Source: an uncultured Bryobacteraceae bacterium
GTDB lineage: Bacteria > Acidobacteriota > Terriglobia > Bryobacterales > Bryobacteraceae
Direction of reading: 5' to 3'
Assembly: GCA_938003835.1 (NCBI GenBank)
Contig: CALKXJ010000002.1
Location: forward strand, 248,001-312,000
Length of the DNA: 64,000 nt
This document shows positions 4,770 through 29,421 of the stretch, one piece after another. Under the pieces are notes generated by a model. It searched no databases. It saw only the letters and a program-made list of their open reading frames with translations, and was not told the DNA's origin. The first letter of the stretch is position 1. Every line of letters starts with the position of its first letter. Position numbers and translations under genes: made by a program.

Positions 4770-4994
4770 ATGCCCGCCCCCGAGAACAAGCTGGTCGAGA
4801 TCACCGTCAACGGCGAGCGGCGAAGCGTGCCCGCGGGCCAGACGATTCTCGAGCTGCTCGCGAGCCTCGGCATTCCGCCCGAGCGAGTCGCCATCGAGTT
4901 CAATCGCGAGATTCTGCGGCGCGAACATTGGGGCTCGACCGCCCTCAACGGCGGCGAACAGCTTGAAATCGTTCACTTTGTTGGCGGCGGCTGA
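4770..4994 (+). CDS. thiS: Sulfur carrier protein ThiS
   Basis: Ubiquitin-like carrier that is thiocarboxylated on its C-terminal glycine and donates sulfur to the thiazole ring of thiamine. 74 residues: an ITVNGE start strand, PAGQTILELL, AIEFNREI, and a C-terminus VHFVGGG with the required terminal Gly-Gly. No thiG, thiF or other thiamine gene lies next to it, so it is a solitary copy here. Its last 22 bases overlap the 3' end of the convergent gene at 4973. No clear Shine-Dalgarno precedes the ATG. Confidence 0.9.
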   Translation: MPAPENKLVEITVNGERRSVPAGQTILELLASLGIPPERVAIEFNREILRREHWGSTALNGGEQLEIVHFVGGG

Positions 4995-7900
4995 CGCGGG
5001 TCCCAGTGGCGCACCTGGCGCGCGGCGCCGAAGCGCAGCCGTAGCATCGCATCCTCGATCTGGCCGAGCTTCCACCGCACCAGCTCCGGCGTGAACAGCC
5101 CGCCGCGAATGATCCCGCCGCCGTCGCTCGCGAAGCCCAGGCGCGAGTCGGCCTCGAGAAGCGGCAGCACCCCTTCGACGTTGGCACGCTCTCTCTCGAG
5201 GATTTCGAGCAGCCTCTCGGCGGGCGCGCCGCTGTCCCGCGCCTGGATCCACTCGATGAGATTCAGCGTCGTCTCGAGTGCCGCAACGATCGTGCGCGCG
5301 ATGCGATACTCGGCCGCGGCCGCCGGCGCCCGCTCGAGCAGCGTCGCACCCTCGGCGAAGCCGTCGCGCACCCGCCGCAGATATTTCGCCGTGATCTGGG
5401 GCCCCCAGGGCTTGGTCCATTCCAGATCGTTCTGCCAGCTCCGCCAGCGCCCGAACGTGGGCACCGAGGCGTCAAGGAAGAACGGGTTGCTCGGCCCTTT
5501 CTGAAGCGGACCGGGGACGCGCGCGACGTTGTCCGAATAAGGGAACTCGCGGATCGCCTCGGTGAACCGCCGCCAGGCCAGGAGGACATTTGGAACAGCC
5601 TCGGGACCGTACTCGATTTGGGCCAGTTCCTCGAGCGGCTCGGCGGGCTCGGGGTCCCACGACATGCGGTTGATCAGCCGCGCCGGGGGCGACGGCGTGT
5701 AGCCGTAGTGGCTCCAGTTGCCGAACCAGCCGGCGAGAGAAAACTCGCGCATCCTGCGGATGCGGGCCAGCCACTGCTCCATCGCCGGAATATACGGCAC
5801 GAAGATGAACTCCTGGCTGACGGCGTGTTCGGTCTTGGCGATGAAGTTGAGGCCGAGCTTCTGCGTGATGCGATACTGCTCGAGCCAGTGATCCGGCGGG
5901 CCGATGAGCGTCAGGTTGTAGTCGCCGGTAAAGTGCCGAATGCCGTCGCGCTCCACCAGCCCGCCTTTCGAGAAGTCGCACTGATGGATGATGTCCCTGG
6001 GAAGCAGGGCGAACAGCCGTTCGAGCCAGCGGGTGTCCTGGCCGTAGTTCCAGGCGATGAGGCGCTTGCCGGGCCCGCCCGCCCCTCGCATGGAGTCCCG
6101 GATCAGGACGAGCAGGTCGCGCGTGAGCTCTTCGCGCGGCTGCTGCCGGCAGCGCGGACAGCGGCTGTGGTTGTGCTCGTCGTTGGCACAGTGGAAGAAG
6201 CCCTCGCTGTCATAGATGACAACCAGGCCGGCCAGCTCCGGCGCGCGCTCGAAGATCCGCCGGACGGTCTCGGCGTAGAACTCCCGCGTGGCCCGCTGCG
6301 AGATGCACAGGGGATTGCCCCAGCCCTGCCCGCGCAGCTCGGGGTGGCGCGCATAGAACCACTCCGGCATGTGACGGTTATAGCCGGTGGCCAGATAGAC
6401 CCAGACGTCGATGCCGTAGCGGGCGGCGCGCCGGGCCAGAGCGCTCAGGCGTTCCAGCCGGAGCGGGGCGTCCGGATCATCGAGCTCGGGGAAGATCTTG
6501 GAGTCGGTCACTGCCTCCTCAACGTTCAACCACACCCAGATGCCGTTGAAGCCGTCGCGCGAGATGCGGCGCAACAGGCCGTCCGTGTAGACAAGCTCGC
6601 GCGAGCTTTCCGTGAGGCGGTCGCCGCCGGGGACCGGCGCGGTGGTGATGCGTATGGGGAAGCGCGGCCGGCGCTCGAGGATGCGCGGCGCCACCTCGGG
6701 CGAACGAGCCAGCAGCATCTGATCTTCGAGTTCGTAAACACCACGAAGCAGGCCTCGGGGCTCAGCGGCGGTGAGCCGGATTCTGGCCGGGCCGATCTCG
6801 AGGCGGAACGCCTCCCCGCCCGGGGCGCGGGGCGAAAGAGCAAGCTCGATCGGGCGGCCGCCCGAACCGATCGAGGCCCCCCAGGTCAACAGGAACTCGC
6901 GCAGATGCGCGACGGCTTGTTCGGCGACCGCGCTGGGCGAGCCGGAGAAGCGGACCTCGAAACGCCCCCTGGACGGCGCCGCCGACCTCGGAGGTTGGTA
7001 GGCTCCCATCATCCGTCCGAGGAACTCGAAGCGCTCCTCGCGGTCCGGCCGGGCGGCGCCGATGGGACGGAACGAGAGCGCGAACTCGGGCGCAAGCCTA
7101 GTCCCGCCGAGGGGTCGCGGCCCAAAGACAGTGAAGAAGTCGCGGGGTGCTAACCCTTTCTCCGCTTGGAGCTCGAACCATACGGTCGCGTCCGGCGCAA
7201 GCTCCTGCGGCGGCACCGGGGCCTCCACCCAGAGGTCAAAAAGAGGTTGGATGTCGCCGGCGGCGACGCGCGCCACGCCGAGTTCCTCACCACCCGGGCG
7301 GGTTCCATAGCGCACCACCAGGGCCCCGGGATCGCCCGTGCGCGCCAGCCGGAGGGACAGCCCGCGGAATGTGCCGCCCGCGCGCAAGCTCCCGCGGATC
7401 CGGTTCCCCGCGTGAGCGTCGAGCCGGTGTGTCACGTAAGGCAGCGTCTCCGGCGCCGGATCGGAGATGCCCGGCAACCACTGTAGGCTCGGCCACAAGC
7501 GGTATTCGTAGTTCCTTCCCGGTGGTTTTTCCGGACGCAGCCAGCGATCGAGGAATTCAAACGCGCCGATGCCGTGAATCTCGTGGCGCCCCTCGAAGCG
7601 ATCCCGAACGATGCGATCCTCGGCCTCCCAGGCCCGCGCAATCGCCGCCACCTCGCTCCAGGCGCGCTCGTGCCAGGGCGGAAAGGTGGTGCCGTCGCGC
7701 AGAGCGAACTCGACCATCACCGCGCGGGGGTAGAAGGCCGCCAGCAACTCGACGTGCGTGAAGCGGTTGAGCACGTCCCAGTTGAAGAAGTCCTCGTCCA
7801 CATGCAGCAGATAGCTGGTGCGCTCGATCTCGTTGGTGATCTTGCGGCGCCAGTCGTTGAAGTGCCCGGAGACAACCGTCGCGCGAAAGCGCGGCTCGAG

Positions 7901-9727
7901 CGGCCCCATCCAGATGGTGGAATAGCCGCCGTAGGAGAGCCCGTAGTAGCCGATCCGGTCGCGATCGACGAAGTCGAGCGACTCGAGGAAGTCCACGATG
8001 CGGCGCAGCTTGGCCGCCTCGATGCTCGTGCGCATGCGCCCCAGGGCGGCCGCCTGGCGCACCAGCGGGTTGACGAGTTCGGCCTGCGGGATGGGGACGG
8101 TGACGTAGGGGGCAAAGACGACGTAGCCGGCTTCGGCGAGGCGCGCGCCGAAGCCGTGGTAGACCGTGTCGGGACTCTCGCCCTGGAGCGTGACATCCTT
8201 CGGCTTGCCGCCCAGGCCGTGTTGCGCGACCACGGCCGGCAGGCGCCCGGCGCCGGAGCGCGGCACCAGCAGTTGGCCGTAGGCTTCCACTCCCTTGACC
8301 ACGTCGAGCAGGACGTCGAAGGCCGCGTAGCGGTCGGTGAGCTTGATCAGGCGCGTGCGCGGCTTAAGCGGGGTTCCGTCGTCGGGCGTCTCGCCAACCA
8401 GGCGCCGGAGCTCCGCGACGAGCTCGCGGGCCTTGGCCTCGCGCGCTCCCGGCGGCGTTTCCGCCAGATTCCAGCGCCGGCGCCGGACTTGGTCGGAGGC
8501 TTCATTCCGCCGGCGCACGTAGTCGAGCAGGGCTTCAAAATGCCGGTTGCGGCGCTCCTGGACCTCGACCGCCGGAAGCCTCCCGGAGAGTTCGAAAGAC
8601 GCGGTGGCCTCGGCGGCGCCCAGCAGCCGGGCGCTTTCGGCCGCCATGGCCTCGAACCCACCGGCGACGTAACGCAACTCCCCGCCCGCCTTGTGTCGGT
8701 CGAAATACCGCCGGGCGCGCTCGAACTCGATGGTGCCCGCGGCGGTGTCGACCACGAGCGGCCGGGGCGCCACCAAGGCCGCCACTTCCGCATCGCCAAA
8801 CTCGAGCAGTTGACCGTAGATGATGCGATCCACGGGCTCGCGCCAGCACTCCTCGCGGGCAGAAAAATAACCCGAAACGGCCGCCAGGCGGAGGCGCTCA
8901 TCCAGGGCGGCGGCGTAAAGGGCGGTCATGCCGCCCTGGCCGCGGCCGAGAACGCCGATCCGCGCCGGATCGACGTCCTCTCGCGCACCGAGCGCGGTAA
9001 GAAGCGCGCGAACCTGATCGGCCTCCATGCCGGTGAGCGTGCGCCCGTTCACGAAGGCCAGCCGGTGGAGGATGTGCCGCCGGTCCTTAAGCGGAAAGCT
9101 GGCGGAAGCCCGCAGTTGCGCTGACAGCGGATGATCGGTGGTGCGTTCCACCATCACCGGCAGACATACGAGGACGTCGCGCGCGAGCAGGTGGACCAAC
9201 CACGGCGCCGGCGTGCGGCCCTCCTCGATGCCTGCAAACCGCTCCGCCGGCTCATCCTCCGGCCCGATGACGATGAGCGCCGGCTTGCGCGGCGCGCCGC
9301 CTGTAGGCGCGAGCAGCACACCGAGAGCGGCGTGGCCGCCCTCGAGTGGCACGCGAATCTCCTCGATCTTGAGCTCCGGCCAGGCGCCTAGCAGTGCCGT
9401 TTCCGCCGCCGCATGCCCGCCGCCCGCGCTGCCGAGCAGCGTCTCCAGGCGCTTTCTCCGCTCGCCGGCGTTTTGCGGATAGGACTTCCAGAGCTCGTCC
9501 CGCCGCGCGGGCGTGGCGGCAATCTCGCGCAGGAAGTAATCCTGGATCTGCCGTTGCTGGATGTCAAAGATGTTCGCGGGCAGCTCGAGCAAAGAAGTTC
9601 CCGGCAGCGCCACATTCACCGGGCGGGTGCGCAGCGGCGGATCGATGCGGGCCAGGATCGCCTCCTCGGAGGCTTGACCCCACACCGCCGCCGCGCCGGC
9701 GAGCAGCAGGAAGAGGGCTCGGAACAT
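4973..9727 (-). CDS. Secreted multidomain protein: two alpha/beta-hydrolase (AXE-like) domains plus glycoside-hydrolase-like domain
   Basis: About 1584 residues from the ATG at 9727; the frame stays open upstream to 9760. A Sec signal peptide (MFRALFLLLAGAAAVWGQA) shows export. Domain 1 (about 125-385) is an alpha/beta-hydrolase whose nucleophile elbow reads GRGQGG (about 261-266), with Gly in place of Ser, so it is probably inactive. Domain 2 (about 470-735) is a related acetyl-xylan-esterase/dienelactone-hydrolase type domain with an intact GLSYGG elbow (about 596-601) and a candidate His in HEIHG. A beta-rich linker leads to a TIM-barrel glycoside-hydrolase-like C-terminal part (about 920-1584) containing S-E-x4-C followed by CPRC (about 1174-1193), shared with the gene at 26824. 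Likely a polysaccharide deacetylating/degrading enzyme; the substrate is unknown. The start is chosen because a TACAAT box lies exactly 7 bases upstream. Confidence 0.7.
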   Translation of the reverse strand: MFRALFLLLAGAAAVWGQASEEAILARIDPPLRTRPVNVALPGTSLLELPANIFDIQQRQIQDYFLREIAATPARRDELWKSYPQNAGERRKRLETLLGSAGGGHAAAETALLGAWPELKIEEIRVPLEGGHAALGVLLAPTGGAPRKPALIVIGPEDEPAERFAGIEEGRTPAPWLVHLLARDVLVCLPVMVERTTDHPLSAQLRASASFPLKDRRHILHRLAFVNGRTLTGMEADQVRALLTALGAREDVDPARIGVLGRGQGGMTALYAAALDERLRLAAVSGYFSAREECWREPVDRIIYGQLLEFGDAEVAALVAPRPLVVDTAAGTIEFERARRYFDRHKAGGELRYVAGGFEAMAAESARLLGAAEATASFELSGRLPAVEVQERRNRHFEALLDYVRRRNEASDQVRRRRWNLAETPPGAREAKARELVAELRRLVGETPDDGTPLKPRTRLIKLTDRYAAFDVLLDVVKGVEAYGQLLVPRSGAGRLPAVVAQHGLGGKPKDVTLQGESPDTVYHGFGARLAEAGYVVFAPYVTVPIPQAELVNPLVRQAAALGRMRTSIEAAKLRRIVDFLESLDFVDRDRIGYYGLSYGGYSTIWMGPLEPRFRATVVSGHFNDWRRKITNEIERTSYLLHVDEDFFNWDVLNRFTHVELLAAFYPRAVMVEFALRDGTTFPPWHERAWSEVAAIARAWEAEDRIVRDRFEGRHEIHGIGAFEFLDRWLRPEKPPGRNYEYRLWPSLQWLPGISDPAPETLPYVTHRLDAHAGNRIRGSLRAGGTFRGLSLRLARTGDPGALVVRYGTRPGGEELGVARVAAGDIQPLFDLWVEAPVPPQELAPDATVWFELQAEKGLAPRDFFTVFGPRPLGGTRLAPEFALSFRPIGAARPDREERFEFLGRMMGAYQPPRSAAPSRGRFEVRFSGSPSAVAEQAVAHLREFLLTWGASIGSGGRPIELALSPRAPGGEAFRLEIGPARIRLTAAEPRGLLRGVYELEDQMLLARSPEVAPRILERRPRFPIRITTAPVPGGDRLTESSRELVYTDGLLRRISRDGFNGIWVWLNVEEAVTDSKIFPELDDPDAPLRLERLSALARRAARYGIDVWVYLATGYNRHMPEWFYARHPELRGQGWGNPLCISQRATREFYAETVRRIFERAPELAGLVVIYDSEGFFHCANDEHNHSRCPRCRQQPREELTRDLLVLIRDSMRGAGGPGKRLIAWNYGQDTRWLERLFALLPRDIIHQCDFSKGGLVERDGIRHFTGDYNLTLIGPPDHWLEQYRITQKLGLNFIAKTEHAVSQEFIFVPYIPAMEQWLARIRRMREFSLAGWFGNWSHYGYTPSPPARLINRMSWDPEPAEPLEELAQIEYGPEAVPNVLLAWRRFTEAIREFPYSDNVARVPGPLQKGPSNPFFLDASVPTFGRWRSWQNDLEWTKPWGPQITAKYLRRVRDGFAEGATLLERAPAAAAEYRIARTIVAALETTLNLIEWIQARDSGAPAERLLEILERERANVEGVLPLLEADSRLGFASDGGGIIRGGLFTPELVRWKLGQIEDAMLRLRFGAARQVRHWDPRQPPPTK

Positions 9728-9734
9728 ATCCGGC

Positions 9735-9740
9735 ATTGTA
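9735..9740 (-). promoter_or_regulatory. -10 box, putative leaderless start of the 9727 gene
   Basis: Minus-strand TACAAT ends 7 bases before the ATG at 9727. The arrangement, including the following GCCGG, is repeated before the gene starting at 14965. No Shine-Dalgarno can fit, so a leaderless mRNA is likely. Confidence 0.45.
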
Positions 9741-19240: not shown

Positions 19241-19260
19241 ACCACAAGGAGATGAATGAC

Positions 19261-20445
19261 ATGGCGGTCATCAGCCGACGGCGTGCTCTGGCAGGGGCCG
19301 CCGCCAACCTTATGATCCTGCCGTCGGAGACGGTCTTTGGCTCGCAAGCCAACTCGGCGGTGAGCTTCGGAATTATCGGCACGGGAGGCCGCGGGCGCTA
19401 CGTGGGTACGCACATGGCGCGCGATCCGCGGGCACGCCTTACGGCCATTTGCGATGTTTTCCCGGACCGCATCGATCTGGCCAAGACGCAGGTGCCGGGC
19501 GCCGACAAGGCGCGCGCCTTCCGGGACTACCGTGACCTGCTCGCCCAAAGCGACGTCGATGCGGTGCTCATCGCCACGCCCGTTTTCCTGCACCCGGAGC
19601 ACTTCGAGGCCGCCGCGGCGGCGGGCAAGCACATCTATTGCGAAAAGCCCGCCGGCGCCGATGTGGCGGGCGTCAAGCGCCTCATGCGCGCCGCCGAGAA
19701 GGCCGACAGGAGCAAGACCCTCGCCTTCGGCTTCCAGCAGCGCTTCAGCCCCGAGTACCTGGCCGCCGAGCGGATCCTGCGCGAGGGCAAGATCGGCAAG
19801 ATGACGCTCATGCTGAGCTACTGGATCCTGGGCGGGCCGCCGCCGGAGCGCTTCGAATCCAAGTACCCGCCGGAGGAGGAGAAGCTCCGCCACTGGGCCC
19901 GCTGGACAGAGCTCTCGGGCGGGCCGATCGTCGAGCAGGACTGCCACGGCCTGGACACTTTGAACTGGTTCGCCCGGGCCCGCCCGCTGAGCGCCGTCGG
20001 ACGCGGTGGCCTCCGCTATCCGGTTCCCTACGGCGACTGGACTTCCGACCACCACGACATCATCTACACCTATCCGGATGGCCTCACCGGCTGGCTGCTC
20101 TCCATCAAGTTCACGGCCGGCTATCGCGACGTCAAGGAGCAGTTTTATGGCTCGAAGGGGATGCTCGAGACGGCGCGGACCTACTACAAGTGGCACGGCC
20201 CGATCCCGACCTCGCCGCTCACCAATGCCGACGACTTGAGAGACCGCAGCCTGATTGAACGCGCCGATTCCAAGCGCGAGATCACCATCGATGCGGTGGA
20301 GGCCTTCTTCACCAGCATCGTCGAGGGAAAACCGTTCAGCATGGCGAGGGATGCCGCCGAGAGCACCCTGACGGCGATTCTCGGGCGGATGGCGCACGAA
20401 TACAGGCGCGAAGTCACCTGGGAGGAGATGATGCGCTCGGCTTAA
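19261..20445 (+). CDS. Gfo/Idh/MocA family oxidoreductase, Tat-exported
   Basis: 394 residues from the ATG at 19261, chosen because AAGGAG (19246-19251) lies 9 bases upstream, whereas it abuts the earlier in-frame ATG at 19252. Twin arginines (SRRRALAG) suggest Tat export. The Rossmann motif is IIGTGGRGR and the catalytic motif is CEKP (127-130). The C-terminal part follows the usual alpha/beta fold, with a long stretch around WTSDHHDIIYTYPDG. It is convergent with the DUF6807 gene, 7 bases apart. The substrate is unknown. Confidence 0.85.
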   Translation: MAVISRRRALAGAAANLMILPSETVFGSQANSAVSFGIIGTGGRGRYVGTHMARDPRARLTAICDVFPDRIDLAKTQVPGADKARAFRDYRDLLAQSDVDAVLIATPVFLHPEHFEAAAAAGKHIYCEKPAGADVAGVKRLMRAAEKADRSKTLAFGFQQRFSPEYLAAERILREGKIGKMTLMLSYWILGGPPPERFESKYPPEEEKLRHWARWTELSGGPIVEQDCHGLDTLNWFARARPLSAVGRGGLRYPVPYGDWTSDHHDIIYTYPDGLTGWLLSIKFTAGYRDVKEQFYGSKGMLETARTYYKWHGPIPTSPLTNADDLRDRSLIERADSKREITIDAVEAFFTSIVEGKPFSMARDAAESTLTAILGRMAHEYRREVTWEEMMRSA

Positions 20446-20452
20446 AGGGCGC

Positions 20453-21379
20453 CTACCGGCGGGCGAAGTGCGCGTAGAGCTCCGCCAGAGCGGCAGCGTG
20501 CGCGTCGCCGGAGTGAATGACGACGCGGTAGCGAAAGCGCATCGTTTCGCCCGGCCGGAGCACGGCGCTGCCATCCCGGCTCTTGTCGCCGGTGAAGTCG
20601 CGCTCGCCGAAAACGTTGGCCGCGAACAGGCCGTAGCCGCGTGCGTGCCAATAGGTCGGGTGGCGGAAGCTGGACGGATGATCGAAGATAGCGATGCCTA
20701 GCGTTTCGCCCTCCACTTGGCCGGAATAGTCCATCCACGGCGCGCGCGTGCCCCAAACCTGCTTCTCGCCGCTGCGGCCGTCGGCGCTCACCAGGCGGCC
20801 GCCGCGGGTCTCGTTCATCGACTCGGCCACGCGGATGGCGAAAGTTCCCTCTTTCGTATCGCCGAATCGAACCTCCCGTACGCCCCTCAGCTCAATGTCA
20901 AAGTCGATGAGCCGGAGCGCAGGATCGGAATGGAAGACCATCCTGCGCAGCTCGGTGAGCAGCACGGCGCCGTCCGGCGCCAGCCAGTCGAACTCGGCGG
21001 TGAGCGAACCTTTTCGCGCCCCGTTTTCGAGCTTGACGAGCCGCTTGAGGGCGATGCGGCCGAACTTGCCGCCCCGGCGCTCGGCGGTGGCGGACCAGAA
21101 ATCGAAGCCGTTGACGTCGCCGTGAGCGAACCACAGGCCTTGATGATGGGGATGATCATGGCGCTCGCCTGCGACCACCTCCATGGGATAACGCCGCGTG
21201 ACGATCTTGCCGGAGGCCGAGCGCAGCGGGTGCAGGTAGGGCTTGCTGGTCTCAGGACCAAAAAACAGTTCGGTGAAAGGCCGTCCGTCGATCTCGATGC
21301 GAACGCTGGTGTCGCCTGGCTGAAAAACCACGCCGGCGACGGCGGGCAGCGCCGCCAGCAGCAGGCACGCCTCTCTCAT
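20453..21379 (-). CDS. DUF6807 (PmoA-like) secreted protein
   Basis: 308 residues from the ATG at 21379, starting with a signal peptide (MREACLLLAALPAVAG). It carries the signature HDHPHHQGLWFAHGDVNG in the first third, and a beta-rich remainder with HPTYWHARGYGLFAANVFG. The family is annotated in databases as methane-oxygenase PmoA-like, but members in Acidobacteria and Planctomycetes sit with sugar oxidoreductases and have no shown link to methane. A role beside the exported oxidoreductase at 19261 is inferred from position only. Confidence 0.8.
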   Translation of the reverse strand: MREACLLLAALPAVAGVVFQPGDTSVRIEIDGRPFTELFFGPETSKPYLHPLRSASGKIVTRRYPMEVVAGERHDHPHHQGLWFAHGDVNGFDFWSATAERRGGKFGRIALKRLVKLENGARKGSLTAEFDWLAPDGAVLLTELRRMVFHSDPALRLIDFDIELRGVREVRFGDTKEGTFAIRVAESMNETRGGRLVSADGRSGEKQVWGTRAPWMDYSGQVEGETLGIAIFDHPSSFRHPTYWHARGYGLFAANVFGERDFTGDKSRDGSAVLRPGETMRFRYRVVIHSGDAHAAALAELYAHFARR

Positions 21380-21465: not shown

Positions 21466-21495
21466 TTGCAATGGGCTTGCAAGACTGTGTAGCAT
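21466..21495 (+). promoter_or_regulatory. Candidate promoter of the TonB receptor gene
   Basis: TTGCAA (21466-21471), an 18-base spacer, then TAGCAT (21490-21495). A transcript would start near 21502, leaving a short leader with the strong AGGAGGT at 21514-21520. Confidence 0.4.
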
Positions 21496-21524
21496 CTGCT
21501 AGATCCTTAGTTCAGGAGGTCGCA

Positions 21525-24500
21525 ATGGGGAGTTTTAAGAAACCACGGGGAAAGACCCGCGTCGGCTATGCCTTGCCGTTGACGTGGTCCATGCTGATGC
21601 TGGCCGTTCTGTCGGGGGCGCCGCCGCTGGCGGCTCAGGTGGCCACCGCTGAGCTCTCCGGCACCGTAACGGATCCGACCGGCGCCGCTGTGCCGAACGC
21701 CACAGTAACGGCCATCAACGCCGCCACGGGCGTCGTCGTTCGGGAGACGTTGACCAGCGCCGGCGGCGAGTACGTGATGACCTTCCTTCCGCCGGGAACT
21801 TACACGCTCACCGCTGAGGCGCCCGGCTTTCGCAAGCTCCAGCAGACCGGCGTGACGTTGAACGTCAACCAGCGCGCGCGCCTCGATCTGCGCCTGGAGG
21901 TGGGCCAGGTGACCGAGACCGTCGAGGTGCAGGCAACGGCGCCGCTGCTCGAAAGCCAGTCCTCCTCGCTCGGCAGCGTCATCGGCGAGCGCTTCGTCAG
22001 CGAGTTGCCGCTCAACGGGCGAAACTTCGTGCAACTGGCGATCCTCACGCCCGGGGTCAACGGAACCGGATACTCGACTCCCGGCACCATCCAAAGCGGA
22101 ACCCGGCCTGACGATCGGCGGCCCGGCACCGAGATCTTCTCCAACGGCAATCGCGAGGGGTCGAACAACTTCCTCTACGACGGCGTGGACAACAACGAGC
22201 GTCTGATCCAGCTCATCGTTTACCGGCCGGCGGTTGAAGCGATCCGCGAGTTCAAGGTGCAGACGAACATGTTCTCGGCCGATGTCGGGCGCAACTCGGG
22301 CGCCGTCGTCGATGTAATCACCAAGAGCGGGACCAACGAGATCCACGGCGCCGCCTTCTACTTCCACCGCAACTCGGCGATGGACGCCAAGAACTTCTTT
22401 ACGCGGCCGGGCGCATCGGTCCCGCCGTTCCGCTACAACCAGTTCGGCTTTGCCGTGGGCGGGCCAATCGTGCGCAATCGGACCTTCTGGTTTGCCGACT
22501 ACGAAGGCTTCCGGCGCAGTCTGCTGAACACCACGACGCGGACCGTGCCGACGCTCGCCATGCGGCAGGGCGATTTCTCCGGCCAGCCCAATACGATCTT
22601 CGATCCGCTGACCACGACGCCGCAGGGCTCCGGTTTCGTGCGCACGCCCTTCCCGGGCAACCGCATCCCCGCCAATCGCTGGGATCCGGTCACGGCGAAA
22701 TTAATGAACGCCTATCCGGCCCCGCAGACCCCGGGCCTGGCCAACAATTACGTCGCCGAGCTTAAACAGACGCAAGATTGGGATCAGGGCGACATCCGCG
22801 TCGACCATCAGTTCACGCCGAACGACAATTTCTTTGCCCGCTACTCGATCCAACACACCACCACCTTCGCCCCGAACACGTTCCCGGAGGTGCAGATTCC
22901 CGGTGTCTCGCGCAAGGTGGGCGTCGGCAACGAAGACTCCTTCGCCGGCCCGGCCTTCAACCCTGTTCAGCACGCCGTGGCCAGCTACGTCAAGGTGCTC
23001 TCGCCGCGCCTGGTGAACGACTTTCGCATTGGGTTCAACCGCTTCCGGTTGGACTACACCGATGTCAGCCACGTTCCCGGCGGCAAGCTGGGTGTCGAGC
23101 TGGGGGTCCCGAACGCTAACGGCCATCCGCTGCAAACCGTCTTTCCAATCTTCAGCCCGGCCGGCTACACCGGCGTCGGCCACAGCCGCTCGCTGCCGAT
23201 CTACCGGCGGAGCAACACCTTCCAGTACACCGACAACGTCACGTACACGAGCGGCGCGCACACGCTCAAGTTCGGGGCGACCGTCATCCGCCGGCAGATC
23301 ACCGAGTATCAGACCAACCGCGGCAACGGGCGGTTCAACTTCTCGGCCGCCTTCACGGATTCGCGGCAGGGCGGCGGCACCGGCCACGCCATGGCCAGCT
23401 TCCTGCTCGGCTACGCCAATCTGATCGAGCAGGATTACACGCTGGCCTGGACGGGACAGCGCGGCTGGGAGCACGGCCTCTACGTTGCCGACGACTGGCG
23501 CATCAACCGGCGCCTGACGTTCAATCTCGGACTACGCTGGGAGTACTTTAGCCCCTACACCGAGGTGGCCGACCGGATCGCGAATTTCGATCTGGCCACG
23601 GCTACGATGAAAATCGCCGGCCGGGACGGAGTCGACCGGCGCCTCGGCATGCAGAGGGACTTCAAAAACTTCGCGCCGCGCTTCGGCTTCGCCTGGCGCT
23701 TGATGGAACACACGGTGCTTCGCGGCGGCTACGGCATCTTCTACAATCCGAACGGCAACGGCGGAGCGCTCATGCGGCTGTTCCGGCACGTGCCTTTCGG
23801 TCCGGTCTACAGCGTCACGCCCGGCGACGTCTTTGTCGGCCCGCGCGTGAGCGACGGCTTCCCGCCGCCTCCAGAAGTCGATTTCCGCGTGGCTGCCGAC
23901 CCGTACGGAGTGGTCTTCAGCGTTCCGAGCTATTACACCTCGGCTTACGCCCAGCAGTACAACCTCACCCTTCAGCACGAGGTCGCCCCCTGGCAGATGC
24001 TGTTCAAAGTAGCCTACGTGGGCAATCTCGGGCGGAGGTTAGGCACCGTCTACGACTACAACCAGCCGGAGCCTGGTCCCGGGACGGTGATCAGCCGCAG
24101 GCCGTACGGACAGATTCGCCCGCGACTGACCAGCGTCAACCTGGCCGTCTCGGACGGCCTGAGCAACTACAACGCCCTGCAAGTCTCCGTCGACAAGCGC
24201 TTCAGCCACGGTTTCGCCATGCTGCTCGCCTACACCTGGTCCCATGCGATCGATACCGTCGGAACCGAGTTCGGCGGGGGCACGGGGACGCCCCAGGACC
24301 GCCGGTGCCGCCGGTGTGACCGCAGCAATGCATCCTTCGACCTCCGGCACCGGGCCACGATCTCCTGGACCTATCATTTGCCGTTTGGCAAGGGCCGGAG
24401 GTGGATGAGTCAGGGCAACGTGAGCGAGTATCTGTTCGGCGGCTGGCAGCTCAACGGAATCACCACGCTTCAGACCGGCCTGCCGTTCACGCCGTCGCTC

Positions 24501-24878
24501 GCCAACCCGAACACCAACGGAGCAGGCGGAAGCCGTCCGGACGTCAACGGGAACCCGGTGCTGCCCTCCAGCGAGCGCTCCATCCGCCGCTGGTTCAACA
24601 CGAGCGTCTTCTCACGGCCGAATGAAATCCGCTTCGGCAACGCCGGACGAAACATTTTGTTCGGTCCGGGACGGGTGAACTTCGACATGTCGCTATTCAA
24701 GCACTTCCCCATCTCCGAACGCTTCACGCTGGAGCTGCGCGGGGAGGCATTCAACATCTGGAATACGCCGCAATTCGGCTTCCCGGACGCCACCATCGGC
24801 TCACCGACCGCCGGCACGATCTCGAGCACGGTGGGCAACCCGCGCCAGATTCAGATCGGCACGCGGCTGGAGTTCTGA
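21525..24878 (+). CDS. TonB-dependent receptor, Oar-like, with N-terminal carboxypeptidase-regulatory domain
   Basis: 1117-residue outer-membrane protein. The start at 21525 follows AGGAGGT by 4 bases. Order: long signal peptide ending near PPLAAQ; a Cna-B/carboxypeptidase-regulatory-like domain (about 40-125, ELSGTVTDPTGAAVPNATVT); a plug domain with the characteristic LPLNGRNFVQL; and a large beta-barrel ending in Phe (TRLEF), the recognition signal for the BAM machine. This expanded Solibacter-type family is assumed to take up oligosaccharides or other large ligands. Genes for the phosphatase/glycohydrolase fusion and a Tat-exported hydrolase follow on the same strand, so it may import their substrate. 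Confidence 0.9.
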   Translation: MGSFKKPRGKTRVGYALPLTWSMLMLAVLSGAPPLAAQVATAELSGTVTDPTGAAVPNATVTAINAATGVVVRETLTSAGGEYVMTFLPPGTYTLTAEAPGFRKLQQTGVTLNVNQRARLDLRLEVGQVTETVEVQATAPLLESQSSSLGSVIGERFVSELPLNGRNFVQLAILTPGVNGTGYSTPGTIQSGTRPDDRRPGTEIFSNGNREGSNNFLYDGVDNNERLIQLIVYRPAVEAIREFKVQTNMFSADVGRNSGAVVDVITKSGTNEIHGAAFYFHRNSAMDAKNFFTRPGASVPPFRYNQFGFAVGGPIVRNRTFWFADYEGFRRSLLNTTTRTVPTLAMRQGDFSGQPNTIFDPLTTTPQGSGFVRTPFPGNRIPANRWDPVTAKLMNAYPAPQTPGLANNYVAELKQTQDWDQGDIRVDHQFTPNDNFFARYSIQHTTTFAPNTFPEVQIPGVSRKVGVGNEDSFAGPAFNPVQHAVASYVKVLSPRLVNDFRIGFNRFRLDYTDVSHVPGGKLGVELGVPNANGHPLQTVFPIFSPAGYTGVGHSRSLPIYRRSNTFQYTDNVTYTSGAHTLKFGATVIRRQITEYQTNRGNGRFNFSAAFTDSRQGGGTGHAMASFLLGYANLIEQDYTLAWTGQRGWEHGLYVADDWRINRRLTFNLGLRWEYFSPYTEVADRIANFDLATATMKIAGRDGVDRRLGMQRDFKNFAPRFGFAWRLMEHTVLRGGYGIFYNPNGNGGALMRLFRHVPFGPVYSVTPGDVFVGPRVSDGFPPPPEVDFRVAADPYGVVFSVPSYYTSAYAQQYNLTLQHEVAPWQMLFKVAYVGNLGRRLGTVYDYNQPEPGPGTVISRRPYGQIRPRLTSVNLAVSDGLSNYNALQVSVDKRFSHGFAMLLAYTWSHAIDTVGTEFGGGTGTPQDRRCRRCDRSNASFDLRHRATISWTYHLPFGKGRRWMSQGNVSEYLFGGWQLNGITTLQTGLPFTPSLANPNTNGAGGSRPDVNGNPVLPSSERSIRRWFNTSVFSRPNEIRFGNAGRNILFGPGRVNFDMSLFKHFPISERFTLELRGEAFNIWNTPQFGFPDATIGSPTAGTISSTVGNPRQIQIGTRLEF

Positions 24879-24901: not shown

Positions 24902-26797
24902 ATGGAACAAGAGAGTCCATTGAGGGGTTATGAGTCGCAACTGAAGGCGGCAATCGAAGCGGCTCTTGCTGCGGGAAGATTCTTGAGACAAGCCTTCCAT
25001 GCGGGGCGCGATGGAGTGGACGCCGAGGCGGAACATCTCATCCGGACCATTTTGGTCGAAAGTTTTCCGGATTACGGTTACTGCGGCGAGGAAACGGGGG
25101 AGTCGGGGCCACGGAACGGAAATCAGCACCTCTGGCTTGTCGATCCATTGGATGGAACGAGCGCCTTTGCCCAGGGGTGGCGCGGGCCGTCGGCATCGAT
25201 CGCGCTGCTCAGAGCGGGCAAGCCGGTCCTCGGTGTGGTTTATGCCTTCTGCTGGCCTGACGACGAGGGCGAGCTGTTCGCCTGGGCTGAAGGGATGCCG
25301 CACCTGGTGCGAAACAATCGCACGGCGCCCTTGCGCCACGATGCTCCCGACACCGTCGCTCTCTCACAGAATGCCGACAAAAAGGCTCGCCTGAATGCGG
25401 AGCTGACGGCGCCGTACCGCTTCCGCAACGTGGCCAGCATCGCCCTGCGCCTGGCGCTGGTGGCCGCCCGTGAGGTCCGCGCCTGCAACTCGCTCCACGC
25501 TCCGGTGGGCTGGGACTACGCCGCCGGGCATGCCTTGCTCCGTGCCGCGGGTCTGGAACTGGTGGACGAAAATGGACAGCCGGTTGTCTACACGCCCGCT
25601 GGCGCCAGCGCGTGCGGGGGCTTCTGCACCGGCGGTCCGCCGGAGCTCGCCCGCGAGCTCTCTCGGCGTGACTGGCGAAGACTCTCTTGCGAGCCGGGCG
25701 ATCCTGAAGAGCCTCACGATCTGTGCCGTCCCAGTCGCCAGAGGCTCGTCTCCGACGCACCTCTTCTGCGGCGTGCCCAGGGGTGCCTGCTGGGCCAACT
25801 TGCCGGCGACGCACTGGGCTCGCTGGTCGAGTTTCAGACGCGAGAATCGATCGCCGCATGCTACCCGGAGGGCCTGCGGCTTCTGGCGGACGGCGGCACC
25901 TACCAGACCATCGCCGGCCAGCCGACCGACGACTCCGAGATGGCGCTGATGCTGGCCCGCTCCCTCTTGGAGGCGGGCGGTTACGATCCTGAGGTCACCG
26001 CCAGGGCGTACCGCTGGTGGTACGACTCCGGGCCATTCGACATTGGCACCACCGTCAGGACCGCGCTCGCTGCGGGCGGGTTCGATCCGGCTCGCAAATC
26101 GGGCTCGTTGGCTGCCGCCTGCCGCCGGGCCGCCAACCATGGCAGCAAGGCCAACGGCGCCCTGATGCGGGTCTCGCCCCTTGGCATCCTGGGCGCCGGG
26201 GCCTCACCGGAGCGCGCCTCCCGCTGGGCGGACGAGGACGCGCAGCTCACCCACCCGAATCCCGAATGCCGCCACGCCAATTCGATCTTCGCCGCCAGCC
26301 TCGCCTTTGCGATCCGCGAGGGTGCGGATGCGCGCGCAACCTATGAGTTCGCTCTGGCCGAAGCCCGGCGCATCGAGGCGGAGGCGAACGTCCGGCACGC
26401 ACTGGAGGCGGCGCGCCGGGAGCCGCCGCGGAGCTACACCAGCCAGCAAGGCTATGTCCTCATCGCGTTCCAGAACGCGTTCTTCCAGGCGCTTCATGCG
26501 CCCTCGCTCGAAGAGGGCGTCGTCAACACCGTCATGCAGGGTGGAGACACCGACACCAACGGCGCCATCGCCGGTGCGCTGCTCGGCGCCATCTACGGGC
26601 GCCATGCGATCCCGTTCCAGTGGTTGGATCGGGTGCTCACGGCGAGGCCGATCCGGAGCCTGGCGGGCGTCCTGCGCCCTCGGCCGAAAGCCTTGTGGCC
26701 CGTGGATGCGTTGATTCTGGCAGAACAACTGCTCTGGCTCGGAAAAAATCATGCAATGACGGAGCCTGCGCCAGGACCCAAGCGGCAACGCCGTTGA
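24902..26797 (+). CDS. Fusion of inositol-monophosphatase-family phosphatase and ADP-ribosylglycohydrolase
   Basis: 631 residues, cytoplasmic (no signal). N-terminal domain (about 1-250) is an IMPase-superfamily phosphatase with all metal motifs: GEETGE (62-67), DPLDGTSAF (81-89) and WDYAAGH (204-210). C-terminal domain (about 288-615) is an ADP-ribosylglycohydrolase (DraG/ARH fold) with GDALGS (302-307), TDDSEM (342-347) and GGDTDTNGAIAGALLGA (548-564), the Mg-binding triads of active enzymes. No stop or frameshift separates the two. The combination suggests sequential removal of a phosphate and a ribosyl or glycosyl group from one metabolite. The gene begins 23 bases after the TonB receptor and ends 26 bases before a Tat-exported hydrolase-like gene. 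No Shine-Dalgarno is evident at the ATG. Confidence 0.85.
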   Translation: MEQESPLRGYESQLKAAIEAALAAGRFLRQAFHAGRDGVDAEAEHLIRTILVESFPDYGYCGEETGESGPRNGNQHLWLVDPLDGTSAFAQGWRGPSASIALLRAGKPVLGVVYAFCWPDDEGELFAWAEGMPHLVRNNRTAPLRHDAPDTVALSQNADKKARLNAELTAPYRFRNVASIALRLALVAAREVRACNSLHAPVGWDYAAGHALLRAAGLELVDENGQPVVYTPAGASACGGFCTGGPPELARELSRRDWRRLSCEPGDPEEPHDLCRPSRQRLVSDAPLLRRAQGCLLGQLAGDALGSLVEFQTRESIAACYPEGLRLLADGGTYQTIAGQPTDDSEMALMLARSLLEAGGYDPEVTARAYRWWYDSGPFDIGTTVRTALAAGGFDPARKSGSLAAACRRAANHGSKANGALMRVSPLGILGAGASPERASRWADEDAQLTHPNPECRHANSIFAASLAFAIREGADARATYEFALAEARRIEAEANVRHALEAARREPPRSYTSQQGYVLIAFQNAFFQALHAPSLEEGVVNTVMQGGDTDTNGAIAGALLGAIYGRHAIPFQWLDRVLTARPIRSLAGVLRPRPKALWPVDALILAEQLLWLGKNHAMTEPAPGPKRQRR

Positions 26798-26823: not shown

Positions 26824-29421
26824 ATGAACCGCAGGGAATTCCTTCTCGGGGGCGCCGCATTCTGCGCCCTCAGCCGCGGCTCCGCCGCTCCGCCCATTCC
26901 GGAGCCGCACTTCCCCAGCCGCCTCTACCAGTACGTCTGGCGGAACTGGGAGCTCGCCAATACTCCCCGCCTGGCCCAGGTAATCGGCGCCCGCGAAGCC
27001 GACATTCTCGAACTCGGCGCCTCGATGGGTCTTCCCCCGAAGCGGCCGCTGGGCGAGGATCAGCTCCGGCGCCTCTACATCACCGTCATCCGCCAGAACT
27101 GGCACCTGTTGCCGGAGGAGCAGATCATCGCGCTGCTCGGCTGGGACCGCGAAAAGTTCGCCTTCACGCTCAAGGAGGACGATTTTCTCGACCATAAGCT
27201 CGGGCCGAAGCCGGATTGTCCCAGGCTGGTTTGGGAGGCGCCGCCGCCCGAGCACCGGCGCCAGGCGGCGCGCATCCGCGACATTCTCCGGCAGACGCTC
27301 GGCCGCGAGCTCGGCGAGGCGGGCGAGGAAGCTTTCGCGTTCGTGCGGCAACTTGCTTCCACCCAATTGCGCCCCTTGCGCGAGCGCTCGCGGCGTCCCT
27401 CCGCCGCCGAGGTCGACCTCACGCGCGGATGGAGCATCCGCGCCCCGCAACAGGAGCCGCTGGCCGGCGCTGCCCGCCGCTTCGCGCAATATCTGCGCGC
27501 GGCGATGGAGGTTGAGGTTCCGCTGGGCGATACGGGACGGGCCATCCGCTTCGCTCTCGACCCCCGGCGGCTGGGCGGCGCCGAGGATTTCGAAGTCGAG
27601 GTCGGAGAGGAGGAGATCCGCATCAGCGGCGGGGCCGAGGCGGGCCTGCTCCGGGCCCTCTACTGGCTCCAGGACGAGATGGAGCTTCGCGCCGGGCCGT
27701 TTCTCGAAAAGGGCGTCCACCGCCGCGCCGCCGTCTGGCATCCTCGCTTCTCTTACTCCTACGTAGCGCTTTACGGCGACCCGTTGCTTGAGCCGGAGGT
27801 CGATCCATTTCCCGAGGGATACCTGGAGAAGCTCGCGCGCTCCGGCGCCGACGGCGTCTGGATGCAGGCGGTCCTGCACACGCTGGCGCCGGCGAAGCAG
27901 TTTCCGGAGTTCGGCGCGGGCTGGGAGCGGCGCCTGGAGAGACTGGCCGTGCTGGTGGAGCGCGCCGCCCGCTACGGGATCAAGATTTACCTTTACCTGA
28001 ACGAACCGCGCGCCATGCCGGCCGCGTTCTTCGAGAAGCACCCGGAGATTCGCGGCAGCCGTTACCAGGATCTTTATGCCATGTGCACCAGCGTGCCCGC
28101 GGTGCGCACCTGGATCGCGGACGCCATCGCCCACGTCACCGGGCACGTCCCCGGTCTCGGCGGGTGGTTCACCATCACCATGTCGGAGAACCACACCAAC
28201 TGCTTTTCGCACGGCGGAGCCTGGGGAGGGGGCGCCCCCTCGGCGAAGGATTGCCCCCGTTGCTCTCGGCGCACCAGTTGGGAGGTTCTCGCCGAGCTGA
28301 TCAAGACCTTCCGCGACGGCATCCGCAGCCGAAGCGAGACGGCCGAGCTGATCGTTTGGGACTGGGGTTGGGGCGATGAGCTGGCTCGAAACCTTATCCC
28401 GCGGCTGCCGGAAGACGTTTACTTCCAAAGCATCAGTGAATGGGAGGCGCCGGTGCGCCGCGGGGGCGTCGAGACGCGCGTCGGCGAGTACTCGATTTCG
28501 GTGGTTGGCCCCGGCCCCCGCGCCACGCGCAACTGGGACCTGGCCCGAAGGCACGGCCTCAAGACGTCGGCGAAGGTCCAGTTCAACGTTACCTGGGAGA
28601 TCTCCGCCGTCCCTTACGTTCCCGTGCCCCACCTGATCGCCGAACACTGCGAGAATCTGCGCCAGGCCGGCGTCTCCGGGCTGATGCTTTCCTGGACCTG
28701 CGGCGGGTATCCATCGCCCAACATGGAGGTGGCGAAAGCTTTCTTCTTCGATCCGGCCAAACCGGCTGCGGAGGCCATCCTGGAAGTCGCCCGGCGGCGC
28801 TTCGGCGAGGCGGCCGCCGCAGATGTAGTCGAGGCCTGGCGGTGTTTCAGTGAAGCCTATCGCGAGTATCCTTACGGCGTGGCGATCTACATCATCCCCA
28901 CCCAGCACGGACCGGCAAACCTCTTGCGGTTCGAACCGACAGGCCACCGGCCCGGCATGATCCTCTTCCCGCACGATGACGTCAAAGCCTGGTGCGGCCC
29001 CTACCCGCCCGAAATCGTGGCGTCCCAGTTCGCCAGGATGGCCTCGATGTGGGAGGAAGGGCTGGTGGCGCTACGCCGGGTCGCCGGGAAGATTTCACCG
29101 CAGAAGAGGCCGGCGCTCGAGGCCGAGCTCGCCGTCGCCGAGACCTGCCGGAACCACTTTCTGAGCACGGCCCACCAGGTGGAGTTCTACGTCCTGCGCG
29201 ACAGGCTGAGGGAAGAGCCCGCGCGGCGGGACGAGATCATACGGCGCATGCGGGCCCTCGCGGAGGCCGAACTCGAGGTGGCGCGCCGGCAGTATCCGAT
29301 CGCCCGGCGCAACTCGACCATCGCCTTCGAAGCCTCGAACCACTACTACTACCGGCCTCTCGATCTGGCGGAGAAGATCCTCAACTGCCGGCGCCTGCTC
29401 GATCACGAGCTCGTCCTCTGA
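26824..29421 (+). CDS. Tat-exported glycoside-hydrolase-like protein (DUF4838/GH67-like)
   Basis: 865 residues from the ATG at 26824. A Tat signal (MNRREFLLGGAAFCALS) opens the protein. A region of about 280 residues of unknown fold is followed by a TIM-barrel glycoside-hydrolase-like part with SGADGVWMQAV, YLYLNEPRAMP and MSENHTNC (453-460), then CPRC (477-480), a likely structural metal site. It shares this S-E-x4-C ... CPRC layout and several flanking blocks with the C-terminal half of the giant protein at 4973-9727. Relationship to DUF4838/alpha-glucuronidase-like families is suggested by the cysteine pattern. A Glu in the SEN motif is a candidate acid/base. Probably acts on a glycan outside the cytoplasm. 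Confidence 0.7.
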   Translation: MNRREFLLGGAAFCALSRGSAAPPIPEPHFPSRLYQYVWRNWELANTPRLAQVIGAREADILELGASMGLPPKRPLGEDQLRRLYITVIRQNWHLLPEEQIIALLGWDREKFAFTLKEDDFLDHKLGPKPDCPRLVWEAPPPEHRRQAARIRDILRQTLGRELGEAGEEAFAFVRQLASTQLRPLRERSRRPSAAEVDLTRGWSIRAPQQEPLAGAARRFAQYLRAAMEVEVPLGDTGRAIRFALDPRRLGGAEDFEVEVGEEEIRISGGAEAGLLRALYWLQDEMELRAGPFLEKGVHRRAAVWHPRFSYSYVALYGDPLLEPEVDPFPEGYLEKLARSGADGVWMQAVLHTLAPAKQFPEFGAGWERRLERLAVLVERAARYGIKIYLYLNEPRAMPAAFFEKHPEIRGSRYQDLYAMCTSVPAVRTWIADAIAHVTGHVPGLGGWFTITMSENHTNCFSHGGAWGGGAPSAKDCPRCSRRTSWEVLAELIKTFRDGIRSRSETAELIVWDWGWGDELARNLIPRLPEDVYFQSISEWEAPVRRGGVETRVGEYSISVVGPGPRATRNWDLARRHGLKTSAKVQFNVTWEISAVPYVPVPHLIAEHCENLRQAGVSGLMLSWTCGGYPSPNMEVAKAFFFDPAKPAAEAILEVARRRFGEAAAADVVEAWRCFSEAYREYPYGVAIYIIPTQHGPANLLRFEPTGHRPGMILFPHDDVKAWCGPYPPEIVASQFARMASMWEEGLVALRRVAGKISPQKRPALEAELAVAETCRNHFLSTAHQVEFYVLRDRLREEPARRDEIIRRMRALAEAELEVARRQYPIARRNSTIAFEASNHYYYRPLDLAEKILNCRRLLDHELVL

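Follow-up and report, generated by a model that had tools for sequence, protein, structure and literature searches.

An IMPase-superfamily phosphatase fused to an ADP-ribosylglycohydrolase in an uncultured Bryobacteraceae bacterium and across bacterial phyla

The window, that is, the whole 64,000-nt stretch of DNA analysed here from an uncultured Bryobacteraceae bacterium, encodes a single protein in which a phosphatase of the IMPase superfamily is fused to an ARH-type ADP-ribosylglycohydrolase (ARG; Table 1). This is a real, conserved two-enzyme architecture and is apparently undescribed: no account of an IMPase-ARH fusion was found in the literature searched, from which many subscription papers are missing. 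The best reading of our comparisons is that the protein represents an IMPase variant of the known pairing of ARG enzymes with phosphatases. We put the probability that it is a bifunctional cytosolic ADP-ribosyl eraser and phosphatase, the IMPase version of the pairing that Iyer et al. predicted, at slightly above one half.

Domain architecture and predicted fold

The preliminary description of this DNA had placed a phosphatase and an ADP-ribosylglycohydrolase in one chain, and this is borne out by a single 631-aa ORF with both metal sites complete. The motifs it quoted (DPLDGTSAF, WDYAAGH, GDALGS, TDDSEM and GGDTDTNGAIAG) are all found in this ORF. Pfam Inositol_P (PF00459) matches residues 15–234 with 99.2 bits, against a cut-off of 27, and ADP_ribosyl_GH (PF03747) matches residues 294–571 with 219.5 bits, against a gathering cut-off of 26.2. 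No signal peptide was seen at the N terminus on inspection by eye.

Table 1. Features of the fusion protein and of its flanking genes (positions are those of the window; residues are those of the window protein)
Feature	Position	Strand	Remarks
Fused IMPase-superfamily phosphatase and ARH/ADP-ribosylglycohydrolase	24902..26797	+	631 aa; ATG start, TGA stop
IMPase-superfamily domain, aa 11–262	24932..25687	+	Pfam, structure match, conservation
Short linker, aa 263–284	25688..25753	+	block pLDDT 93–95, high-confidence prediction
ARH/ARG domain, aa 285–619	25754..26758	+	Pfam, structure match, conservation
Predicted IMPase metal/catalytic residues	D40, E63, D81, D84, T86, D205		taken by us to be IMPase D47, E70, D90, D93, T95, D220
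ARG metal/catalytic residues	D303, E310 (Glu flap), T342-D343-D344, D380, H451 (TH motif), D549-x-D551-T552		
TonB-dependent-receptor-like gene, upstream	21471..24878	+	start uncertain, 21471 or later; OMP_b-brl_4/carboxypeptidase-regulatory type
865-aa protein, downstream, Tat-like N terminus, weakly glycoside-hydrolase-like	26824..29421	+	

An AlphaFold2 model computed from an input alignment of 15 fusions has a mean pLDDT of 92.2 and a pTM of 0.92, so the placement of the two domains relative to each other is confidently predicted. When residues 283–620 were compared with known structures by VIA-align, the best match was Tri1 (PDB 6dre; Z 39.1), followed by a Thermus protein (2yzw; Z 38.4), DraG (2woc; Z 37.4), ARH3 (Z about 34–35) and ARH1 (Z about 30). 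Residues 10–265 matched IMPase/SuhB structures with Z scores of 27–29 (SuhB 3luz, Z 29.0). No PDB chain convincingly spanning both halves was among the matches listed by Foldseek or VIA-align. Tri1 is the ARH-type immunity protein of a T6SS toxin pair; unlike the fusion it has no phosphatase domain, the identity is 26%, and no toxin gene was seen beside the fusion.

Distribution and mobility

Scan patterns derived from the single sequence proved specific to the window and found no relative; an alignment-based scan of 84,980 genomes recovered 452 relatives. All of the best 80 of these carry both domains in one ORF and in the same order (one, L138, with a truncated phosphatase half), and neither chance nor an assembly artefact explains such a fusion. 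The possibility raised in the preliminary description that the fusion is unique to one assembly is thus clearly dismissed by the genome-wide search for the two-domain architecture that it had proposed. Judged by their titles, the best 80 of the 452 come from Acidobacteriota, Planctomycetota, Chloroflexota, Myxococcota, Verrucomicrobia, Hydrogenedentes, Armatimonadetes, Riflebacteria, Gemmatimonadota, Synergistetes and Proteobacteria. Fusion-bearing isolates include Sorangium cellulosum So0157-2 (L157), Minicystis rosea (L171), Gemmobacter nectariphilus (L188), Ruegeria marisrubri (L192), Azospirillum ramasamyi and Rhodobacter sp. CZR27.

At closer range the distribution is patchy. The 237 genomes from the same family include about a dozen carriers of the fusion, and several more were found among 396 genomes spread across the phylum. 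The genome of the window itself has one copy, and its other IMPase-like genes are some 30–40% identical to it over partial stretches; in the source organism the fusion is an isolated copy. Four plasmid or chromid records also carry the fusion, and the gene appears to move between genomes. Where the plasmid copies are annotated, they are named only 'inositol monophosphatase family protein', a label that hides the ADP-ribosylhydrolase half in databases. Phage records contained no full-length match, the listed matches spanning the ARG half only. The per-residue codon score of the fusion gene is the lowest among the 48 genes of the window that encode more than 150 aa, which hints at transfer, with amino-acid composition as a confounder.

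Active sites and family membership

By score and residues, the two halves are assigned to the ARH family PF03747 and the IMPase superfamily PF00459. Conservation was scored over 88 aligned fusions at six phosphatase and ten ARG positions. All six phosphatase positions are intact in 78 of these proteins and all ten ARG positions in 83, the window protein being among both, and the two sets are intact together in 75 of the 88. The expectation in the preliminary description of two active sites in one chain therefore gains support, as both sets of residues have been kept in most of the family. In alignment A2 the six phosphatase residues are invariant.

In the ARG half, D380 aligns with Asp97 of DraG and is Asp in 86 of the 88 fusions; according to the review by Rack et al. 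(2020; PMC7050489), Asp97 is crucial for DraG, whereas ARH1 and ARH3 lack it. The role of the Glu flap is likewise taken from that review, and the roles of the ARG residues also from PMC9503650. The resemblance to DraG (PDB 2woc and 3g9d) covers the fold (Z 37), the metal ligands, the Glu flap and the Asp97 position. However, DraG has no fused phosphatase, and the adenine-binding ExxA motif of DraG (Glu121) is not conserved in the fusions: the window protein has HGSK, and the family is variable here, followed by S-Q-A-N-G. The position of DraG Tyr212 is Tyr in the window protein but mostly Trp across the family. These two differences suggest that the fusions may differ in how they recognise the base or its surroundings. 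The window protein scores 140.8 bits with the DraG equivalog model TIGR02662, far below the cut-off of 337.05; with this score and no ExxA motif, assignment as a DraG orthologue was rejected despite the Asp97 equivalent.

The phosphatase half shares its fold and all six catalytic residues with CysQ and SuhB/IMPase but scores well under every equivalog cut-off: 80 bits against 228.8 for the CysQ 3'(2'),5'-bisphosphate nucleotidase (TIGR01331) and 49.7 bits against 332 for inositol-1-monophosphatase/SuhB (NF008027). CysQ is nevertheless its best NCBIfam model, below cut-off as it is, whereas a PDB profile search favours SuhB/IMPase. In a midpoint-rooted tree the phosphatase halves from the fusions group as a single clade (support 0.88), separate from the 15 stand-alone IMPases sampled.

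Evolutionary history

In the ARG tree, fusion lineages extend to the base of the clade and ARG-only relatives are nested within it, although several inner supports are weak. This topology would fit a single fusion event followed by losses of the phosphatase half. One apparent case of separate IMPase and ARG genes, considered as a Rosetta-stone pair (L089 in genome G144), was discarded: an alignment of its DNA with L087 reveals a single additional G in a run of seven. On this comparison the split reflects a frameshift, which probably arose through misassembly or a recent mutation.

Nested ARG-only relatives would also be consistent with a phosphatase half that mainly serves the ARH enzyme as a module for binding or regulation, with phosphatase activity being secondary or lost in places. 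Four fusions (L035, L084, L038 and L086) have indeed lost IMPase residues while keeping the ARG metal and TH residues. Two of these, L035 and L084, belong with L083, which keeps the phosphatase site, to the closest relatives of the window protein. The preservation of all six phosphatase residues in the large majority of fusions, including the window protein, argues against such a module, as does the reverse loss in two others. In L100 (8025–9815) and L102 (8529–10271) it is ARG residues that are degraded (for example, D343A and D549G/D551G) and not those of the phosphatase, which mirrors L035 and L084. We consider a mainly regulatory role quite unlikely.

Neighbouring genes in the window

The fusion gene had been suggested to belong to an uptake-and-degradation locus together with the TonB receptor upstream and the exported, glycoside-hydrolase-like protein downstream. 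The distances given to these co-directional genes, 23 and 26 nt, are correct, and no terminator-like site lies on the + strand between the three genes. The identification of the neighbours holds in part. The upstream product is a TonB-type protein, but it comes from a very large family in this genome. The downstream product does have a Tat-like N terminus, but its match to Glyco_hydro_20b is sub-threshold (23.6 versus 26.1 bits).

Tabulating neighbours, as the preliminary description had advised, did not turn up either gene as a conserved partner. Among 1,422 genes called on 107 loci, no neighbour is common to the fusion family. At the 106 loci other than the window, a homologue of the hydrolase was never found near the fusion, and the receptor family is represented at one locus, by a weak match six genes off and on the opposite strand. 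The hydrolase occurs in 43 of the 237 family genomes, on a different contig from the fusion wherever both are listed, and its seven closest relatives have different neighbours. With no link elsewhere, a large receptor family and the hydrolase relatives located elsewhere, the uptake locus is rejected as a conserved arrangement. In addition, the predicted compartments of the proteins differ, and short co-directional gaps are frequent in the window. A role of the fusion in such a locus is thus very improbable, and co-transcription of the three genes in the source organism alone is possible.

The receptor family shows a striking expansion, with 130 stretches matching the receptor gene (21471–24878) in the 5-Mb genome. 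The window also encodes a 1587-aa protein (4973–9736) with distant homology, at about 32% identity, to the 865-aa hydrolase-like protein. A DUF6807 protein (20453–21379; 281 bits) adjoins a Gfo/Idh-type dehydrogenase (19252–20445), possibly as a sugar-catabolism pair.

Gene context in relatives

Most of the approximately 85 fusion neighbourhoods lack defence or ADP-ribose genes; a minority of the relatives have accessory genes of these kinds. In G142 a regulator lies 7 nt beyond the fusion; it combines an N-terminal RtcR domain with a sigma-54 AAA domain and an HTH (PADLOC RtcR_PspF2 CARF_AAA_HTH, 424 bits), and after it comes an ARPP-1 protein (PF20208, 302 bits). ARPP-1 is found beside the fusion in both G142 and G144. 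In a member of the Hydrogenedentes (L123), a HIRAN-ARPP-1 protein is the convergent neighbour.

Several proteobacterial loci, plasmid-borne ones among them, combine the fusion with nucleases, Nudix proteins or WYL regulators. Rhodobacter sp. CZR27 has a Nudix gene 8 nt downstream, with a TM0106-type (RecB-like) nuclease-helicase and a WYL protein close by. In Gemmobacter the fusion is followed by a homologue that joins the Nudix domain and the next ORF, and McrC and a probable McrB are adjacent. A WYL/WCX regulator lies two genes upstream of the fusion in Pseudomonas luteola, with a TM0106-type (RecB-like) nuclease beyond it, and an Mrr endonuclease lies near the fusion in Azospirillum ramasamyi. 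At the window, no Nudix or WYL gene was seen among the part of the neighbours that was scanned, and the ARPP-1 gene of this genome is on a different contig from the fusion. ARPP-1 is present in 5 of about 12 fusion genomes versus 38 of the remaining genomes among the 237 of the family, a suggestive figure that is confounded by genus.

A PADLOC comparison of adjacent with distant genes gave no convincing general enrichment of defence genes beside the fusions. The matches at the +/-1 positions were mostly to generic kinase and AAA models, and once these were removed no clear signal was left, so a general enrichment was rejected.

Some further genes recur near the fusion or its ARG-only relatives. 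An AAA ATPase, weakly IetA-like, adjoins the fusion on two separate branches of the family: it is divergent in the nearest relatives of the window, L035 (8825–10159), L083 (10624–11991) and L084 (11921–13162), and on the same strand in the more distant L088 (12409–13821). Directly downstream of the fusion, L035 (12606–12809), L083 (8005–8208) and L084 (9141–9344) share a conserved ORF of 67 aa that consists of two nearly identical repeats (..IYVYDERGRVLYTR..); none was seen at the window. Five Rhodobacterales loci have a small recombinase-like gene running divergently from the fusion (L186:9237–9857, L188:473–1093, L189:9229–10029, L192:9223–9924 and L204:6231–6845). Of the close ARG-only relatives, one lies beside a NADAR protein (L104:8078–8626), which was seen at no fusion, and another overlaps a PDC-S68 candidate defence helicase (L112:242–3970).

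Comparison with ARG-centred systems and proposed function

Iyer, Burroughs, Anantharaman and Aravind (2022; PMC9503650) predicted widespread bacterial systems centred on ARG. According to their section on these systems (3.8), slightly more than 55% have a phosphatase coupled to the ARG, either within one polypeptide or as an adjacent one, and more than 42% have a Nudix or a WYL transcription factor nearby; viral ADP-ribosylation would be removed and the ADP-ribose then processed further. The systems are described as having variable modules such as NADAR/Macro, restriction-type nucleases and ARPP, and as lacking a coupled ADP-ribosyltransferase or sirtuin. The fusion resembles these systems as described there in joining an ARG and a phosphatase in one polypeptide and in that some of its relatives adjoin ARPP-1, Nudix, WYL, NADAR, nucleases or helicases. 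In contrast, its phosphatase is of the IMPase superfamily, outside the four kinds that the section names (rhodanese-phosphatase, calcineurin-like, HD and HAD), and no accessory genes were seen at most fusion loci, among them the window as far as its neighbours were scanned. That paper nowhere uses the word 'inositol', and the lineages listed in its ARG section do not include Acidobacteriota.

A true fusion of two enzymes with two conserved active sites makes sequential action on a phosphorylated ribosyl compound, as first proposed from the DNA sequence, a reasonable expectation. The ARH domain, with its DraG-type residues, would hydrolyse ADP-ribosyl adducts, or closely related ribosyl ones, at the C1'' glycosidic bond, and the N-terminal domain would then take a phosphate monoester off the released product or off the former site of the adduct. 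Plain ADP-ribose has no phosphate monoester, so the natural substrate is likely to be phosphorylated at the 2' or 1'' position, or else the phosphatase would act on Nudix products or nucleic-acid ends. Candidates for its substrate are thus 2'- or 1''-phosphorylated ADP-ribose, a nucleic-acid end phosphate, and AMP or ribose-5-phosphate from a separate Nudix enzyme.

KptA/Tpt1 is a classic source of phosphorylated ADP-ribose and a possible source of 1''-phosphorylated products. Its gene (PF01885) was found in 4 of the 237 family genomes and in none with the fusion, and a role on KptA/Tpt1 RNA-repair products was therefore rejected. SCO5809, an ARH-like protein of Streptomyces, takes ADP-ribose off RNA phosphate ends (PMC11833690), which is one argument for considering nucleic-acid end phosphates as a route that could join the two halves. 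The ADP-ribosyl mark or its product might itself bear the phosphate monoester, as NADP-derived 2'-phospho-ADP-ribose or as ADP-ribose on a nucleic-acid phosphate end, and be erased in one pass; we regard this as rather unlikely.

The purpose of the enzyme would be to undo ADP-ribosylation that phages or other attackers have imposed, as Iyer et al. predict for the ARG-phosphatase pairing. The eraser reading is supported by the folds, the fusion at all of the best loci, the plasmid copies, the intact sites, D380, the recurring ARG-phosphatase theme and the context in relatives. It is weakened by the many loci without defence or ADP-ribose genes and by the neighbours in the window, which fit no such system; by a phosphatase step that needs a specific product, given the chemistry of ADP-ribose; and by the lack of KptA/Tpt1 in the fusion genomes of the family, the unconserved ExxA motif and the loss of the IMPase site in several close relatives.

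The main rival is a housekeeping role in salvage or metabolite repair with no part in conflict. The substrate of the ARH domain would then be a small metabolite with a ribosyl or glycosyl group, such as O-acetyl-ADP-ribose, a phosphoribosyl compound or a damaged nucleotide, from which the CysQ/IMPase-like domain would remove phosphate. The usual lack of conserved or defence-related neighbours is what one would see for a stand-alone metabolic gene, both sites are conserved across many phyla, and CysQ, the best-scoring though sub-cut-off model of the phosphatase domain, is a small-molecule nucleotidase. However, the patchy presence within the family, the plasmid copies together with flanking restriction genes in proteobacteria, and the ARPP-1 neighbours in two lineages speak against salvage, which we judge somewhat unlikely.

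Implications

Whichever bond and phosphate are its targets, the fusion offers a single purifiable protein with which to ask what lies behind the frequent pairing of ARG enzymes with phosphatases, since the actions of the two fused halves must fit one substrate path. If the ADP-ribosyl mark does bear a phosphate, the family would represent an undescribed class of ADP-ribosylation reversal.
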